A stretch of DNA of 64,000 nucleotides from Cloacibacillus sp. (GTDB lineage Bacteria; Synergistota; Synergistia; Synergistales; Synergistaceae): NCBI GenBank assembly GCA_036655895.1, contig JAVVPF010000016.1:1-64000 (forward strand). Reading direction: 5' to 3'. Within the stretch, counting starts at the first letter, position 1. Every line of letters starts with the position of its first letter. A model generated the notes under the pieces. That model worked only from the letters and a program-made list of their open reading frames with translations. It was not told where the DNA came from and did not search any database. This document shows positions 18,594-46,618 of this stretch, one piece after another. Made by a program: the position numbers and the translations under genes.

Positions 18594-18658
18594 TATTCCA
18601 AGCGAAATTATACACAACCGCATTTATGTGCATTATAACAAAAACTTACAGAAAACAC

Positions 18659-18687: not shown

Positions 18688-18889
18688 AACAAACGAAAGG
18701 CGGTGACGCGCTGTGCATCCAAATACGATAGAAAATACATGATGCGGCTTTAGTGCAGGGACTGCATTAAACTGCGAACATATCGACTTTGTGATAGGGA
18801 GAGCGCGGGCTGCTTAACAAAAACCTTTCCTCCTCCCTTATTGCTTTGATTCTTAATACCACACAAAAGGCTAGGGGAGATTTTTTCAA

Positions 18890-20044
18890 ATGTACAATGA
18901 TATAGACAAGAATTTAAATGAAATGCGCGACGCAATTCACAACGCGCCTCTTGAAGTAAAGGCGCTAAAAGAAGCGGGAGTTCCTATCATAGGAACATAC
19001 TGTACCTTCACTCCATGGGAATTAATAAACGCAGCCGGGGGCGTCTCCGTCTCACTTTGCAGCACAAGCGACAAGCCGATAGCCGCTGCGGAAAAGCACC
19101 TCCCGCGCAATTTATGCCCGCTCATAAAGGCAAGCTACGGCTTCGCGCTCACAGACAGCTGCCCATATTTTCATTTCTGCGATATGGTCGTCGGAGAAAC
19201 TACCTGCGACGGCAAGAAAAAAATGTATGAATTACTGGCAAACCTCCGCGAGACGCATGTGATGCAGCTGCCGCAGTGCAAAGATCACCCGTTGAGTTTT
19301 GAACTATGGCGCCATGAGATAACAGCCCTTAAGAAACATCTTGAAATGCGCTTCGGCACGGAGATAACCGACGAAAAGCTGGCGAGATCTATCGCGCTGC
19401 GCAATTCCATACATGCCACGGCTATGCGCGTCTACGACTTAGCGACACTTCCTGAACCAATTGTCACAGGAAAAGAAATCATGCTGATCTCAGACTACCT
19501 GAAATTTTCATTTAATTACGAAACAAGCATCGCTAAGGTCAACGAACTTGTTGACAAACTGCTTGCCAACTATATAGATGGACAGCGGCGACAGGATATG
19601 GCGGCGCACCGAATACTGATAACCGGATGTCCGATGGGTAAATCTCTTGAGAAAATTGTAGACGCCATTGAATCTCCAGAATGTGGGGCCATTGTTGTAG
19701 GGTTTGAAAACTGCGGCAATCTGAAATGTTCGCACTTTCCAGTCCGCACCGACATTTCCCCCATCGACGCGATTACTGAAAAATATCTCTCGATCCCATG
19801 CTCCGTCATGTCGCCTAACTACGGCCGCAAAGAACTACTAAAGCACTACATCGACAAATACAGGGCGAACGGCGTCATTGACGTCATTTTGCAGGCCTGT
19901 CACACCTACAATGTCGAATCACACTCAATAAGACAGCTCTTAGCGGAGGAAGGCGTGCCCTATCTGGCGGTCGAAACCGATTATTCTCAAAGCGATACAG
20001 GTCAGCTTTCTACAAGATTCGGCGCCTTTTCGGAGATGCTCTAA
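18890..20044 (+). CDS. Double-cubane cluster protein / 2-hydroxyacyl-CoA dehydratase subunit-like (YjiM type)
   Basis: The 384-residue protein belongs to the HgdB/FldC/BcrB superfamily, whose members bind iron-sulfur clusters and reduce substrates with electrons energised by ATP. Seven cysteines cluster in the first third (38, 57, 76, 91, 97, 106, 130) in motifs such as GTYCTFTPWEL and DSCPYFHFC, and more lie at 247, 265, 275, 280, 304 and 337. Classical dehydratases need two different subunits. Here a single subunit is paired with an activator, which fits the double-cubane proteins (DCCP; E. coli YjiM is about the same length). The start has GGGGAG 10 nt upstream. It overlaps its activator gene by 1 nt. 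The physiological substrate is unknown. Confidence 0.85.
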   Translation: MYNDIDKNLNEMRDAIHNAPLEVKALKEAGVPIIGTYCTFTPWELINAAGGVSVSLCSTSDKPIAAAEKHLPRNLCPLIKASYGFALTDSCPYFHFCDMVVGETTCDGKKKMYELLANLRETHVMQLPQCKDHPLSFELWRHEITALKKHLEMRFGTEITDEKLARSIALRNSIHATAMRVYDLATLPEPIVTGKEIMLISDYLKFSFNYETSIAKVNELVDKLLANYIDGQRRQDMAAHRILITGCPMGKSLEKIVDAIESPECGAIVVGFENCGNLKCSHFPVRTDISPIDAITEKYLSIPCSVMSPNYGRKELLKHYIDKYRANGVIDVILQACHTYNVESHSIRQLLAEEGVPYLAVETDYSQSDTGQLSTRFGAFSEML

Positions 20045-20802
20045 TGGCCTGCATCGGTATAGACATAGGTTCGACCGCGACAAAGGGAGTTTTATGGAAT
20101 GGTCGGAGCTTTTCCTTTTATATTACGCCGACCGGTTGGACGCCCAATGAAAGCGCGAAAAAGGCCGTGGCGAAAATCCAAAAACGCGGGCGCATCATGC
20201 AAAACGACGGCCTTTTTATCACCGCGACGGGCTACGGCAGAAACGTTTTTCAAGCGGATAAACGCGTAACTGAGATAACTTGCCATGCGGCAGGCGCGCA
20301 TTACCTCCTGCCGGAGGCAACGACAGTGCTTGATATAGGCGGGCAGGACTCAAAAGTGATCTCTCTGGGACCAGACGGCAAAGTAACCGATTTTCTGATG
20401 AATGACAAATGCGCTGCCGGCACGGGCCGCTTTCTGCAAAATATGGCTGTGCATCTTGGATACACCCTTTCGGACTTCTGTTGTATCACGGAAAGCGCTG
20501 CGGCGCACCCCATAAACAATATGTGCGCCGTCTTTGCTGAATCTGAAGTCATAGGGCTTATATCGCAGGGCGTCTCAAAGGAGGCCATCTGCCTGGGGCT
20601 GCTTGACTCAGTAGCTCAGCGCGCCGTCAACCTGCTTTCAAGACTTTCAGAACACGGAGACATTTGCTTCTCTGGAGGTTGCGCGCAAAACGAGCTGCTC
20701 AGAAAGCTCATTGAGAAAAAGACTAAACGAAGAGTGGTAACACCAGACCGGGCGCAGTTCGTTGGGGCTATTGGAGCGGCGCTCATTGGAGCCGGGCTCT
20801 AA
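20044..20802 (+). CDS. ATP-dependent reductase/activator of the DCCP (BadF/HgdC/YjiL family)
   Basis: This 252-residue ASKHA-fold ATPase injects low-potential electrons into its partner while hydrolysing ATP. It has the phosphate-1 loop GIDIGSTATKG (5-15), the DIGGQDSK motif (97-104) and two cysteines, C123 (NDKCAAGTGRF) and C161 (NNMCAVFAESE). Homodimers use these to hold one bridging [4Fe-4S] cluster. The TAATG overlap with the upstream gene indicates translational coupling and a dedicated partnership. A bidirectional terminator lies 76 nt downstream. Confidence 0.92.
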   Translation: MACIGIDIGSTATKGVLWNGRSFSFYITPTGWTPNESAKKAVAKIQKRGRIMQNDGLFITATGYGRNVFQADKRVTEITCHAAGAHYLLPEATTVLDIGGQDSKVISLGPDGKVTDFLMNDKCAAGTGRFLQNMAVHLGYTLSDFCCITESAAAHPINNMCAVFAESEVIGLISQGVSKEAICLGLLDSVAQRAVNLLSRLSEHGDICFSGGCAQNELLRKLIEKKTKRRVVTPDRAQFVGAIGAALIGAGL

Positions 20803-22318: not shown

Positions 22319-23314
22319 TTAACCCCCTATTCCGGACATGTGCAGATTGCCCGTGTTTATGTCGTTCCAGCAGCGCGGCTTTTCGCGCACGCTTTCCAGT
22401 ATCTTTTCCATGAGCGCCGCGCCGTCGCGCCTTATTATCAGCTCTTTCAGCTCCGTCTCTTTCGGGTTGAAGAGGCAGGTGCGGAGCTTGCCCTCGGCGG
22501 AGACGCGAAGCCGGTTGCAGCTTTGGCAGAAATGGTTTGAGACGGCTGTGATGATGCCGATGGTGTCTCCCGTCTTTTCGTTGAAATAATACTGCGCGGG
22601 GCCGTCTTCGCATGAGCTGTTGGTATTTTTGACCCATGAGGCGCCGTCCGGCAGCATCGAAAGTATCTCTTCGCCGCTTATGAAGGACTCTTTGTTCCAT
22701 ACTTCTTCCTCAAGCGGCATAAATTCGATGAGCCGCAGCAGCAGCCCCTCGCGGCGCGCAAAGAGGAGCAGGTCGGTTATCTCATGGTCGTTGAAGCCCC
22801 TTATGAGGACTGTGTTGAGCTTCATATTGTTTATGCCGGCGCTTTTTGCGGCCCTGATGCCGTCCAGCACCTCGTCAATCGTCCCGATGCGCGTCACGTT
22901 TTTAAATTTATCGGCGTCCAGCGTGTCGAGGCTGATATTTATTGAATGGAGCGAGGCCTCCGCGAGTTCGGGGGCGTATCTGCGAAGCAGCGACGCGTTT
23001 GTGGTTATCGCGGTCTTTATATTTGGATACGCCTCTTTAAGCTCTTTAAGAAAGGGGACCATTCCCTTTCTCACCAGCGGCTCTCCGCCGGTGAAGCGAA
23101 ATTTGCCGACGCCGAGCTTCGTAAAGATGCCGCAGAGAAACATGATGTCCTCGTAGCGCAGAATGTCGGAATGGCTGAGGCAGGTGACGCCCTCTTCCGG
23201 CATACAGTAGGTGCATCTGAAATTACACCTGTCCGTCACCGATATCCGAACGTAATTGAGGCGCCTGCCGAAATCGTCTTTTAGCTCCCTCTTTGCTTCC
23301 GTTAGTTGGGCCAT
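22319..23314 (-). CDS. moaA: GTP 3',8-cyclase MoaA (radical SAM)
   Basis: MoaA rearranges GTP to 3',8-cyclo-GTP, the first Moco step. The 331-residue protein has the radical SAM cluster motif C30-x3-C34-x2-C37 (TDRCNFRCTYC). A second set of cysteines for the substrate-binding [4Fe-4S] cluster lies in HFCQSCNRLR and LRTCLF. It ends in Gly-Gly (SGIGG), which is needed for activity in characterised MoaA. It overlaps the upstream moeA fusion by 13 nt and is followed by moaC. Confidence 0.97.
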   Translation of the reverse strand: MAQLTEAKRELKDDFGRRLNYVRISVTDRCNFRCTYCMPEEGVTCLSHSDILRYEDIMFLCGIFTKLGVGKFRFTGGEPLVRKGMVPFLKELKEAYPNIKTAITTNASLLRRYAPELAEASLHSINISLDTLDADKFKNVTRIGTIDEVLDGIRAAKSAGINNMKLNTVLIRGFNDHEITDLLLFARREGLLLRLIEFMPLEEEVWNKESFISGEEILSMLPDGASWVKNTNSSCEDGPAQYYFNEKTGDTIGIITAVSNHFCQSCNRLRVSAEGKLRTCLFNPKETELKELIIRRDGAALMEKILESVREKPRCWNDINTGNLHMSGIGG

Positions 23315-25224
23315 CTGTATCCACCCATTTCGTCAACTTTTTTGCGCCACTCTTCGTCGTTCAGCGCCTCAAGCAGCGCCGCGATGCCGGGGTGGCCGAT
23401 GAATGCCTCTGGAATGACAAGCTCGTACGGCTCCTCGGCAAGAGGGATGAAGTCAAGGCCAAGCGCGTCGGCCGCGGACTTTATGCCAAGCGTCGCGTCC
23501 GCAAGGCCGGTGTATACGCGGTTTGCCGCCTCCATGTGCGTGGTGCATATCTGCGAGTAGCCCTTTATCGCCTCCGGCGCGGTTTTGTTTTCGCGCAGAA
23601 GGTGGTCAAAAAGCACCCGCGTGCCCGCCCCCGGCTGTCTGTTTGAAAAAACTATATCCTTTGTGCATAGGTCTTTGAAATTTTCTATTTGCTTCGGGTT
23701 CCCGCGCTGGACGATGATGCCCTGAGTTCTGTAGAAGACGAGCACGCGGCGCCACTTTTGCCCCTTTGAAAAACGCTCGATGAAGGAATCGTTGTAGAGG
23801 CCGCTCTCTTCGTCAAGAAGATGGGCCGCCGCCACGTGGCATTCTCCGCGCGAGAGCGCGGCCAGGCCGCCCATGCTGCCCACAGCGCGCGAAGCAAGAT
23901 CCGCTCCGCGCCTGCGTATAGGCGTCACAAGAAGCTGTATAGCCGGGTCGTCCGAGCCTTGAAAGAGCGCGCGGCGTTCTATATCCGGCCTGCGCGTCAT
24001 CCAGAGTTCTACGTCCGTCCCCTTTTCGCATTCAAGGGCGGAGGCAGGAAGCATCGCGATGCCGTCCGCCTCCGCGAGCGCCCATAGCACGCTCGCGCCC
24101 GATGTCAGCGCCCATGAGTAGAGCGTGCCGCCGACAAGGGCCGTCTTCATACGCAGCCATTCTTCAATGCCCTGCCCCGAAGAATGCTGCACAAGCAGCT
24201 TCGTATGCCATATATCTTTTGTTCCGAGCGCTTTTTTTATCTGAGAGACAAGCGCCTCCCGTTCTCCAGAAAACTGCAAAAGCAGCGGATATACGAGCGA
24301 CCACAGCGCGACCGTGGTGGACATCGGAAAGCCGGGCAGACATATAACGGGCTTGCCCTCTATCTCCGCCGCCATCGCCGGACGTCCCGGCTTCATGCGC
24401 ACGCCTCTGAAAAGAACGCGCCCAAGTTCCGAAAAGACCTCTATCGTGTGGTCGCGCTTGCCCTTTGCAGAGCCTGCGCCCACCATTACGAGGTCATAGT
24501 ACTCCGCGCCCTTTTTGACGTATTCTTTTAATATCTGGGGATTGTCGGGCAGTATCGGTGCAACGTCCACCTCAAAGCCCCACTCTTTGAACGAGGCCGA
24601 GACAAAAAGTGAGTTGCTCTCCGCCACCGTGCCGGACTTCTGATGTTCTTTTGCAAGCCATTCCTCGCGGGATATTATCTCATCCCCCGTAGGGATGAAG
24701 AGTGAACGTATCCTTCTTTTTACAGGAACGGCGTCGATGCCGGAGCAGAGAAAAAGAGACACGAGCGCCGGAGTTACGACGTCGCCCTCGCGCGCTATTA
24801 TCTGACCGGCCATCACATCCTCTCCAAGAGGCCGCACGTTTGCGGAGGGCGTCAGTGGCTTATAAATGACCAGCGTATCATCTTCAAGCGATGAGTCCTC
24901 CACCATAAGCACAGAATCGGCCCAGTCCGGCAGCGCAGCTCCAGTGTTCATCCACTGGTATTGTCCACTCGCTGCGCGCGTGGGAGTAGCGGCGGACGCG
25001 CCCGCTGTAGCGGCCGACGCAAGCGCGTATCCGTCTACCGCGGAGGCCGCGTAATGCGGAACGTTGCGCCCCGCCGTTATATCGCGCGTAAGCACATGTC
25101 CGAGAGCCGCCGTTATCTCCGTCATGCGCTCCGGGTCGAATGCGCCCTTTGCGAATGTCGAAGAAAGTATCTTCCACGCTTCATCTAAAGTTATATGTTC
25201 AGGAAAGTTCACTGCCACAGCCAT
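23302..25224 (-). CDS. MoeA-type molybdopterin molybdotransferase fused to a periplasmic-binding-protein-like domain
   Basis: The 640-residue protein has a MoeA core of about 400 residues. The linker contains AVDGYA, the MoCF domain contains IPTGDEI and VMVGAGSAKGKRD, and LPGFPMST follows. MoeA inserts molybdate or tungstate into adenylylated molybdopterin. From about 415 to 640 a COG1910-type PBP-like (LysR-substrate-like) domain follows, including SNRQPGAGTRVLFDHLL and GLADATLGIKSAADALGL. In this family the PBP-like domain may bind the oxyanion or sense it. The gene overlaps the upstream moeA by 16 nt and moaA by 13 nt. In the family motif GGSSVG this copy reads GAGSAK. Confidence 0.9.
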   Translation of the reverse strand: MAVAVNFPEHITLDEAWKILSSTFAKGAFDPERMTEITAALGHVLTRDITAGRNVPHYAASAVDGYALASAATAGASAATPTRAASGQYQWMNTGAALPDWADSVLMVEDSSLEDDTLVIYKPLTPSANVRPLGEDVMAGQIIAREGDVVTPALVSLFLCSGIDAVPVKRRIRSLFIPTGDEIISREEWLAKEHQKSGTVAESNSLFVSASFKEWGFEVDVAPILPDNPQILKEYVKKGAEYYDLVMVGAGSAKGKRDHTIEVFSELGRVLFRGVRMKPGRPAMAAEIEGKPVICLPGFPMSTTVALWSLVYPLLLQFSGEREALVSQIKKALGTKDIWHTKLLVQHSSGQGIEEWLRMKTALVGGTLYSWALTSGASVLWALAEADGIAMLPASALECEKGTDVELWMTRRPDIERRALFQGSDDPAIQLLVTPIRRRGADLASRAVGSMGGLAALSRGECHVAAAHLLDEESGLYNDSFIERFSKGQKWRRVLVFYRTQGIIVQRGNPKQIENFKDLCTKDIVFSNRQPGAGTRVLFDHLLRENKTAPEAIKGYSQICTTHMEAANRVYTGLADATLGIKSAADALGLDFIPLAEEPYELVIPEAFIGHPGIAALLEALNDEEWRKKVDEMGGYRWPN

Positions 25225-26447
25225 ACCTCCGTATCTTCTCCCGCCCTTTTCGTTTCGGCGTCCTCAGCTATACGGATAAGGCCGTCCGCCTTGGAAAGCA
25301 CCGATATATACCCTGATTTCGCGGAAAGCGGGCGCGCTTTGCCGTCCGGGGTGAGGGCGCAGGGGATGAACTCCTCCGGGCCAGTTCTTGCCGCAACGTC
25401 GCAGGCAAGCGGAAGCCGCGTGCGCACGCCGCAGAAAAATGGTTCTTCGCACGCCATTCGCGCAATCAGTGGAAGCAGAAAGACAAAGGCCGCCGTAAGG
25501 CACGAAAGCGGATGTCCGGGCAGGCTTACCGCGATTTTGCGCGCGCAGGCGTCTGCTGCGGCAAGCGTAGGCTTGCCCGGCACGATGTTGAGGCCCCGTA
25601 CAAGCAGCCCTGGGGCGGGCATCGCCTCCAGGAGCTGCGAACAGCGGTCGCGCATCCCGACGGAGGAACCGCCGCTAAGTATAAGAATGTCGCACGAGGC
25701 AAGCTCTTTGTGAAAACGCGCCTCAAACTCCGCGCCGTCGTCGCTCACTATTCCGCGGTAATCCGCGTGAAAGCCGTAGGAGGCAAGCAGCGCCTTAAGG
25801 TTCCAGCCGTTGACGTCGCGTATGGAGCCGGGCGGTACCTCTTTTGTCTCCGACGGCACTATTTCGTCGCCAGTAGATAGAATAGAAATTTTGGGAGCCA
25901 TCACGGAAAGTTCTGTGAGGCCCGCGGTGGCGAGCAGCCCTATAGTCTTGAAATCTACGAGGCTGCCTTTCTCAAGCAGCCTCTGCCCCGCCTTTATCTC
26001 CTCGCCCTTATGGATGACGTTTTCTCCGGCCTGAACGCCGCGGCGCACCTCTATCCAGCCTCCGGTGCAGTCCGTGTCTTCAAGCATGACTACTGCGTCC
26101 GCGCCCTCTGGCAGCAGGCCGCCGGTAGGAATGGAGGCGGCCTCCGATGCTGAAACGGCAAAATCAGGCACGACGCCCATGCGGACCTCGCCGCGTTTAT
26201 TCAGAAAAAGGGGCGTGCCTTGCGTAGCGCCGTTCGCGTCCGCATGGCGCACCGCGTAACCGTCCCTCAGGCTTCTGCTGTAGGGCGGGTAGTCCTCCGC
26301 GCTCGTCACCTCTGCTGCGCAGCGCCTGCCTATCGCGTCGCCAAGCGGCAGGACCGTCTGCCTCACGTTCCACGGAAAAGAGAGCGCAAGCGAAATTTCA
26401 TCCAGCGCCTCTTTTCTTGAGATGACTTTTTTTACAAATCCGGCCAT
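25209..26447 (-). CDS. moeA: Molybdopterin molybdenumtransferase MoeA
   Basis: This is a standalone 412-residue MoeA with the full set of motifs: SLRDGYAV, the IPTGG of the beta domain, ILSTGDEIV and LSGGSSVGMRD in the MoCF domain, and VSLPGHPLSC. It is the second MoeA in tandem. In some prokaryotes paired MoeA proteins are thought to separate molybdenum and tungsten loading, but the metal cannot be read from sequence. It follows the SPOR gene by 35 nt and overlaps the MoeA-PBP gene. Confidence 0.94.
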   Translation of the reverse strand: MAGFVKKVISRKEALDEISLALSFPWNVRQTVLPLGDAIGRRCAAEVTSAEDYPPYSRSLRDGYAVRHADANGATQGTPLFLNKRGEVRMGVVPDFAVSASEAASIPTGGLLPEGADAVVMLEDTDCTGGWIEVRRGVQAGENVIHKGEEIKAGQRLLEKGSLVDFKTIGLLATAGLTELSVMAPKISILSTGDEIVPSETKEVPPGSIRDVNGWNLKALLASYGFHADYRGIVSDDGAEFEARFHKELASCDILILSGGSSVGMRDRCSQLLEAMPAPGLLVRGLNIVPGKPTLAAADACARKIAVSLPGHPLSCLTAAFVFLLPLIARMACEEPFFCGVRTRLPLACDVAARTGPEEFIPCALTPDGKARPLSAKSGYISVLSKADGLIRIAEDAETKRAGEDTEVWLWQ

Positions 26448-46225: not shown

Positions 46226-46266
46226 CCGCAAGTCAGCCGCAACGTTACGTTGCGGCTGACTTGCGG
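46226..46266 (-). terminator. Strong hairpin terminator after rnpB
   Basis: A perfect 19-bp stem beginning CCGCAAGTCAGCCG closes a 3-nt loop immediately downstream of the RNase P RNA 3' end. The following tail is only TTTAAGG, so termination may rely on the stem strength. Confidence 0.65.
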
Positions 46267-46267
46267 T

Positions 46268-46618
46268 CGGAGCACTCAGTAAGCCGGGTTTTGTAAGGAG
46301 CTTGCGCTCCCTCCGGTCATTTATCTAACCCTGCCTTTGCAGACAGGAATGAGCGGTCGTACCCGGAAGTCGGCGGGCCGCCTCATCCTTCCCTATTCGA
46401 CCTTGCTCCGGATGGGGTTTGCCAGGCACGCGGGTTCCCCTCGCGTCCGGTGGGCTCTTACCCCGCCTTTTCACCCTTGCCGCGCACGCGCGGCGGTTTG
46501 CTTTTCTGCGGCACTTTCCCTGGGTTCGCACCCGCAGGAATTTCTCCTGCATCCTGCCCTTTGGAGCCCGGACTTTCCTCTCGCGTTTAACGCCAGCGAC
46601 CGGATCGAGTACTCCGAA
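46268..46618 (-). ncRNA. rnpB: RNase P RNA, bacterial type A
   Basis: This is the catalytic RNA that matures tRNA 5' ends. The minus strand contains the universal core GAGGAAAGTCCGGGCTCC near its 5' end and ends with ACAAAACCCGGCTTACTGAG. The termini pair as helix P1 (10 bp: 46607-46616 with 46268-46277, one G-U). The length of about 350 nt is normal. The exact ends are inferred from P1 and the promoter position. Confidence 0.95.

Follow-up and report, generated by a model that had tools for sequence, protein, structure and literature searches.

A stand-alone double-cubane-cluster protein and its ATP-driven reductase with a probable role in selenium metabolism

Double-cubane-cluster proteins (DCCPs) carry a double-cubane cluster that receives electrons in an ATP-driven transfer from a reductase, DCCP-R (PMC11971306 and the solved complexes). 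In vitro, members of the family reduce acetylene, azide and hydrazine; the physiological relevance of these activities has been called unclear (PMC11971306), which agrees with the statement in a first-pass annotation of the DNA studied here that the physiological role of such proteins is largely unresolved. The [8Fe-9S] cluster is rare, ATP is spent on the reduction, and the cellular job of these proteins is a long-standing question. Earlier hints of a link to selenium are found in a STRING table containing dehydratase-like and activase genes (PMC5322559) and in the description of the family as 'provisionally linked to selenium metabolism' (PMC10418091).

The pair of genes described here lies in a stretch of 64,000 nucleotides (the window), which is contig 16 of the 2.9 Mb genome of a gut-type anaerobe; this genome is 99.3% complete and its closest named relatives are Synergistaceae MAGs. 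The encoded proteins have the equivalog family, the fold (TM 0.93-0.94), the six cluster ligands and the reductase partner in common with the DCCP:DCCP-R system of C. hydrogenoformans (PDB 6eno, 7yyl, 7yzm); however, the two DCCPs are 34% identical and fall on opposite branches of the family tree, and position 247 is Thr in the C. hydrogenoformans protein but Cys in the window protein, with the last ligand followed by Gln-Pro in the former and by His-Thr in the latter. With E. coli YjiM/YjiL the window pair shares the tree branch, Cys247, the CHTY motif and the adjacent reductase gene, but the E. coli operon also includes ytiA, encoding a Se/S carrier, behind yjiM-yjiL, and the window pair has no such neighbor. 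Genes for DCCPs of the same family adjoin selenium genes within selenium operons and within type I mlp clusters (PMC5322559, PMC10418091), whereas the window pair stands alone between rapZ and moa genes. The BzdN subunit of benzoyl-CoA reductase (PDB 8s02) also holds an [8Fe-9S] cluster, with six matching cysteines; in contrast to the window DCCP, to which it is 21% identical, it pairs with BzdO as a heterodimer, and its substrate is known.

Identity and setting of the DCCP/DCCP-R pair

The overlapping reading frames of 384 and 252 codons reported in the first-pass annotation are both present where it had placed them (Table 1), and share a single base in the sequence TGATG. The DCCP scores 484.9 bits against the NCBIfam double_cubane equivalog model NF040772, above its cut-off of 350, and 351.8 bits against PF06050 (HGD-D). 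All six double-cubane cysteines are present (C38, C76, C106, C275, C304 and C337), as numbered by alignment with the [8Fe-9S] ligands of BzdN named in PMC11971306; in the solved DCCP from C. hydrogenoformans, the counterparts of these ligands are likewise six cysteines. Five of these cysteines are conserved in 123/123 aligned relatives and C38 in 122/123. The ligands had earlier been placed within the ranges C38-C130 and C247-C337; the six ligands are indeed there, but the ranges serve as outer bounds only, with C130 (conserved in 2% of the aligned relatives) and C247 (85%) not being ligands. An AlphaFold model built from the alignment has a pLDDT of 93.4 (35 in a single-sequence run), and its best match among solved structures is the DCCP:DCCP-R complex (7yzm_A, TM 0.94), with 6eno at TM 0.93. 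We conclude that the first gene encodes a genuine double-cubane-cluster protein, and infer that this copy assembles the cluster.

Table 1. Features of the DCCP locus and its leader, in window coordinates.
Feature	Position	Strand	Description and basis
20-bp identical block	18623..18642		alignment of four genomes; possible promoter
Putative 9-codon leader ORF	18713..18742	+	GTG CAT CCA AAT ACG ATA GAA AAT ACA TGA
SECIS-like hairpin behind leader UGA	18749..18771	+	10-bp stem, GGA loop, fold -16.2 kcal/mol, z -3.4
DCCP gene	18890..20044	+	384 aa, ATG start, YjiM branch; NF040772, ligand map, tree, AlphaFold model
DCCP-R gene (HgdC/YjiL-type activase)	20044..20802	+	252 aa, ATG; PDB match, TIGR00241, cysteines C123 and C161

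The second gene encodes a protein of the BcrAD_BadFG/acyl-CoA dehydratase activase family (TIGR00241, 247 bits), whose best PDB match is the DCCP reductase itself (7yyl_E). The two cluster cysteines claimed for it, C123 (MNDKCAAGTG) and C161 (INNMCAVFAES), are both in place by alignment with the cluster cysteines of HgdC-type activators. Judged from the E-values of the PDB matches (1e-64 for DCCP and 1e-51 for DCCP-R) and from the orthologs of the pair found in related genomes, the identity of the two proteins is far beyond chance. The passed NF040772 cut-off, the six ligands, the fold and the adjacent activase thus bear out the original reading of a DCCP-type protein with a dedicated reductase. 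The genome's sole other clear activase-family protein is a 1452-residue frame on contig 4 (60380-62095, reverse strand; L083 and L084), with two activase-like stretches that are 26-31% identical to DCCP-R.

A DCCP tree, made by a quick method, has two branches. The larger contains the window protein and E. coli YjiM, and the smaller the solved C. hydrogenoformans protein together with the second DCCP that some Clostridium operons encode; the window protein belongs to a group of 13 from Synergistota (SH-aLRT 99) within the DCCP/YjiM branch and outside HadC and BzdN, a placement on which the first-pass reading depended. Most members of the YjiM branch resemble the window protein in having Cys247 and a His-Thr pair behind the last ligand; the solved DCCP has Thr and Gln-Pro at these places. 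The position of C247 is that of BzdN Ser239, which lines the channel to the BzdN cluster (PMC11971306). Because position 247 differs between the branches and its BzdN counterpart lines the cluster channel, the solved DCCP may be no faithful guide to the active site of the YjiM branch. Five clostridial operons (L010, L019, L020, L028, L029) encode two DCCPs of different branches together with a Se/S carrier and one reductase, and their two DCCPs may form a heteromer.

The DCCP sequence is 79% shared with the nearest complete genomes. On the 5' side of its gene lie, divergently, rapZ, yvcK and a whiA-like gene (the last called by eye only), and on the 3' side of the DCCP-R gene, convergently, moaB-like, moaC, moaA and two moeA-type genes; no selenium gene was found beside the pair, between these rapZ/yvcK and moa flanks. 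The rapZ side of the locus is conserved in three relatives (G137, G138 and G167). In the first two, moa genes also lie downstream of the pair, past one or two additional ORFs, and in the third a different gene follows and the contig ends shortly after. The two moeA-type genes adjoin on the reverse strand (23302-25224 and 25209-26447), and the first encodes a long fusion of the PRK14498 type (539 bits, cut-off 534). Elsewhere in the window, the reverse strand encodes a bacterial class A RNase P RNA (46264-46616, 267 bits).

Co-occurrence with SelD and selenium operons

When the gene neighborhoods of relatives were clustered, selD, yedF and selenocysteine-lyase-like genes came up, as did genes for Se/S carriers (PF11823) and ABC transporters, and the co-occurrence of DCCP with SelD was therefore counted. 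Among 188 Synergistota genomes, DCCP exceeds the cut-off in 80 and SelD is present in 124. In those at least 95% complete (n=96), SelD accompanies DCCP in 51/51 cases, compared with 24/45 genomes without DCCP (p 5e-9); in a sample of 195 Clostridia the corresponding counts are 27/27 and 22/168 (p 5e-20). These p-values ignore shared ancestry and, because the genomes are related, overstate independence. When the Synergistota are stratified by genus the link persists (CMH p 6e-6), mostly through a single genus, g38, without which p is 0.03. Nine Synergistota genomes have DCCP with no SelD detected, every one of them less than 95% complete, and SelD is present in 39/40 further DCCP-bearing genomes. 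The family is thus almost restricted to SelD-positive genomes, in the near-complete genomes of both the Synergistota and the sampled Clostridia.

Several controls were counted in the same way. MoaA has no link to DCCP in the same Synergistota genomes. Among the Clostridia, SelD is found in 11/45 genomes that have only other HGD-D proteins, compared with 11/123 without any HGD-D match, a much weaker link than that of DCCP. Of 14 control genomes, E. coli and M. jannaschii are the two that have DCCP, and these two are also the ones with the Se/S carrier. Given SelD, YqeB is present in 15/27 Clostridia with DCCP and 11/22 without. Among SelD-positive Clostridia DCCP thus shows no dependence on YqeB, so that its tie is with selenium use at large; a connection confined to the selenium-dependent molybdenum hydroxylase trait was dropped. 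Many SelD-positive genomes are without DCCP, which is therefore not essential for selenium use. The genome of the window itself encodes, on contigs other than this one, a SelD with an in-frame TGA, three copies of YqeB, one YedF and one Se/S carrier.

The link is also seen in gene order. In the Synergistota genome G161 (L131), whose DCCP belongs to the window protein's own group of 13, selD, yedF, a mocA-like gene, a lyase-like gene, a Se/S carrier gene, DCCP and DCCP-R form a run with yqeB just past selD. An annotated clostridial run (G283, L145) comprises yqeC, yqeB, yedF, selD, DCCP, DCCP-R, a mocA-like and an xdhC-like gene, and is a locus of the kind that makes the selenium-dependent molybdenum cofactor; its yedF-selD-DCCP-DCCP-R-mocA-like core recurs in two further Clostridia (G420 and G359), with yqeB close by. 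In another genome (G415, L147) DCCP and DCCP-R are followed by selD, a selenium-associated LysR regulator gene, a lyase-like gene and yedF. Relative to the earlier hints, what is new is the count, the controls and the extension of the selenium link to the clade of the window protein. The first-pass view of this locus as an under-described system can be made more specific: the family is almost confined to genomes that use selenium.

Proposed role and alternatives

We propose that the pair probably functions in selenium metabolism as a stand-alone DCCP/DCCP-R system, and that its most likely role is to deliver very-low-potential electrons to a selenium (or sulfur) compound. From the genome data, the physiological substrate is rather likely to be a selenium compound on its way to selenide. 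Taking over the electron-transfer chemistry by homology, a DCCP-R dimer with one [4Fe-4S] cluster would be reduced by a low-potential carrier and then bind ATP, and the ATP-bound form would dock on the DCCP dimer. Hydrolysis would push single electrons onto the [8Fe-9S] double-cubane clusters, and the super-reduced cluster would reduce a compound that is otherwise hard to reduce, most likely a selenium compound, inorganic or organic (or a sulfur analog), en route to selenide, the substrate of SelD. Among the points against a role in selenium metabolism are the relatedness of the genomes counted, the nine DCCP-bearing Synergistota genomes without a detected SelD, the mixed transporter families beside DCCP in relatives, the lack of a selenium gene next to the pair in this genome, and the in vitro substrates known, which are non-selenium compounds only. 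The near-absolute restriction of the family to selenium-using genomes in two phyla, with controls, nevertheless offers a specific and testable hypothesis for its role.

An unlikely alternative is that the system is a general ATP-driven reductase of small or toxic molecules resembling acetylene, azide and hydrazine, with the selenium co-occurrence a by-product of a strictly anaerobic, metal-rich metabolism. Reductions of this kind are the family's only cited activities, and their physiological relevance is the one called unclear (PMC11971306); in Calderihabitans, expression of DCCP and DCCP-R is lower under CO (PMC7306483). On such a reading, however, the repeated operons with selD, yedF and Se-carrier genes would be unexpected. 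MoaA, another anaerobe-rich trait, shows no association with DCCP in the Synergistota genomes counted, and the association of SelD with other HGD-D proteins is only weak (11/45).

It is also doubtful that the pair reduces an imported organosulfur or other organic compound, supplied by a dedicated ABC importer, to release sulfur or carbon. Genes for an SsuA/NMT1-type binding protein, a permease and an ATPase lie directly 5' of DCCP at five loci (L012, L016, L017, L023 and L130), the close orthologs in genus g6 have a Pst-like importer before DCCP, and transporter genes directly precede DCCP in several Clostridia as well. The transporter families differ among these relatives, and therefore indicate at most an imported substrate; none is found beside the window's pair, and the SelD link holds whatever the neighbors. 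Import of an organoselenium compound would suit this reading and the selenium reading alike.

That the DCCP is a 2-hydroxyacyl-CoA dehydratase or an enzyme of the benzoyl-CoA reductase type, with which it shares its Pfam family and fold (TM 0.87-0.88 between the model and BzdN and HadC), is highly improbable, and we dropped this reading: the DCCP is the single HGD-D protein in a 99.3% complete genome, its scores are far under the cut-offs of the HadC (78 of 700 bits), BzdN (53 of 454) and BcrC (43.5 of 421) models, it retains six of the six ligands where HadC of a dehydratase has lost two of these positions, and the tree places it elsewhere. With a single PF06050 match, the genome has no dehydratase partner for it, as the stand-alone reading of the first-pass annotation implies. 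No second subunit was found beside the close orthologs examined; among more distant Clostridium DCCPs, a second DCCP paralog can adjoin.

The leader upstream of the DCCP gene

The four genomes with this locus (the window, L118, L119 and L122) were aligned across the gap of 358 bases that separates rapZ from DCCP, in which they are 53-69% identical. Two long blocks are identical throughout, the one listed in Table 1 and a second at 18754-18768. The first may possibly be a promoter, although a consensus scan for sigma-70 promoters and for terminators gave nothing useful upstream of DCCP and nothing at the position of this block; no known regulatory RNA in Rfam matched the upstream region.

The second block begins 11 nt past the TGA of a putative leader ORF and holds the core of a hairpin. 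A Shine-Dalgarno-like site before this ORF (18696-18706), its length of nine codons and its UGA end are present in four of four genomes, as is the hairpin core TGCAG-GGA-CTGCA, which in the window is part of a 10-bp stem; the four cores are identical and so show no covariation. The distance from the UGA to the loop is 16 nt and the loop is GGA, compared with 17 nt and GGC in the SelD SECIS of the same lineage. SelD of this genome (contig 3, near 80102; L143, from 9603 onwards) is itself a selenoprotein, and behind its in-frame TGA lies a hairpin with a 6-bp stem and a GGC loop. The hairpin falls within the limits of the published bSECIS model (loop of 3-9 nt with G in the first two positions, stem of 4-16 bp, 16-37 nt from the UGA, MFE <= -7.5; PMC13188914), as do 15% of all TGAs in the window, so that this agreement is weak by itself. 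Requiring a 10-bp stem in the strict form leaves a single occurrence in the window, where 0.017 would be expected, for an element found by looking rather than predicted. The exact pattern TGA-N11-TGCAG-N3/4-CTGCA recovers solely copies of this leader among the loci compared, and a scan for the geometry upstream of 20 more distant DCCP genes, in other clades, did not recover the element and gave one chance-like hit.

These features are suggestive of a candidate SECIS: with bacterial SECIS elements the hairpin has in common the UGA, the 16-nt distance, a small loop starting with GG and a stable stem, but it follows a nine-codon leader ORF without a conserved downstream peptide, whereas bacterial SECIS elements lie in selenoprotein genes. 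The frame past the UGA is open in 4/4 genomes and the residues after it are conserved only within the hairpin; the leader as a real selenoprotein was therefore dropped.

We tentatively put forward, as a possibility rather than a probability, that DCCP/DCCP-R is a selenium-supply enzyme whose mRNA leader senses selenium. With selenium plentiful, SelB and Sec-tRNA would read through the leader UGA; with selenium scarce, translation would terminate there, and either outcome could set DCCP expression. If real, such a UGA-SECIS switch would be a control element that we did not find described in the literature searched, where no title returned was relevant to bacterial leader peptides with a UGA that respond to selenocysteine, and would be direct evidence that DCCP expression answers to selenium.

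A good rival, to which we give a little under an even chance, is that a LysR-type regulator uses the palindrome TGCAG-GGA-CTGCA as its DNA operator (of the T-N11-A form) and that the short ORF is incidental. The core is perfectly dyad-symmetric, L147 has a gene for a selenium-associated LysR regulator next to DCCP-R and selD, a LysR-like gene is part of the DCCP unit of Calderihabitans (PMC7306483), and the loose bSECIS model is met by chance at the frequency given above. An operator would, however, leave aside the retention of the Shine-Dalgarno-like site, start codon, nine-codon length and UGA in four genomes across a gap of such limited identity, as well as the UGA-to-loop distance, which is within one base of that in the lineage's own SelD SECIS.
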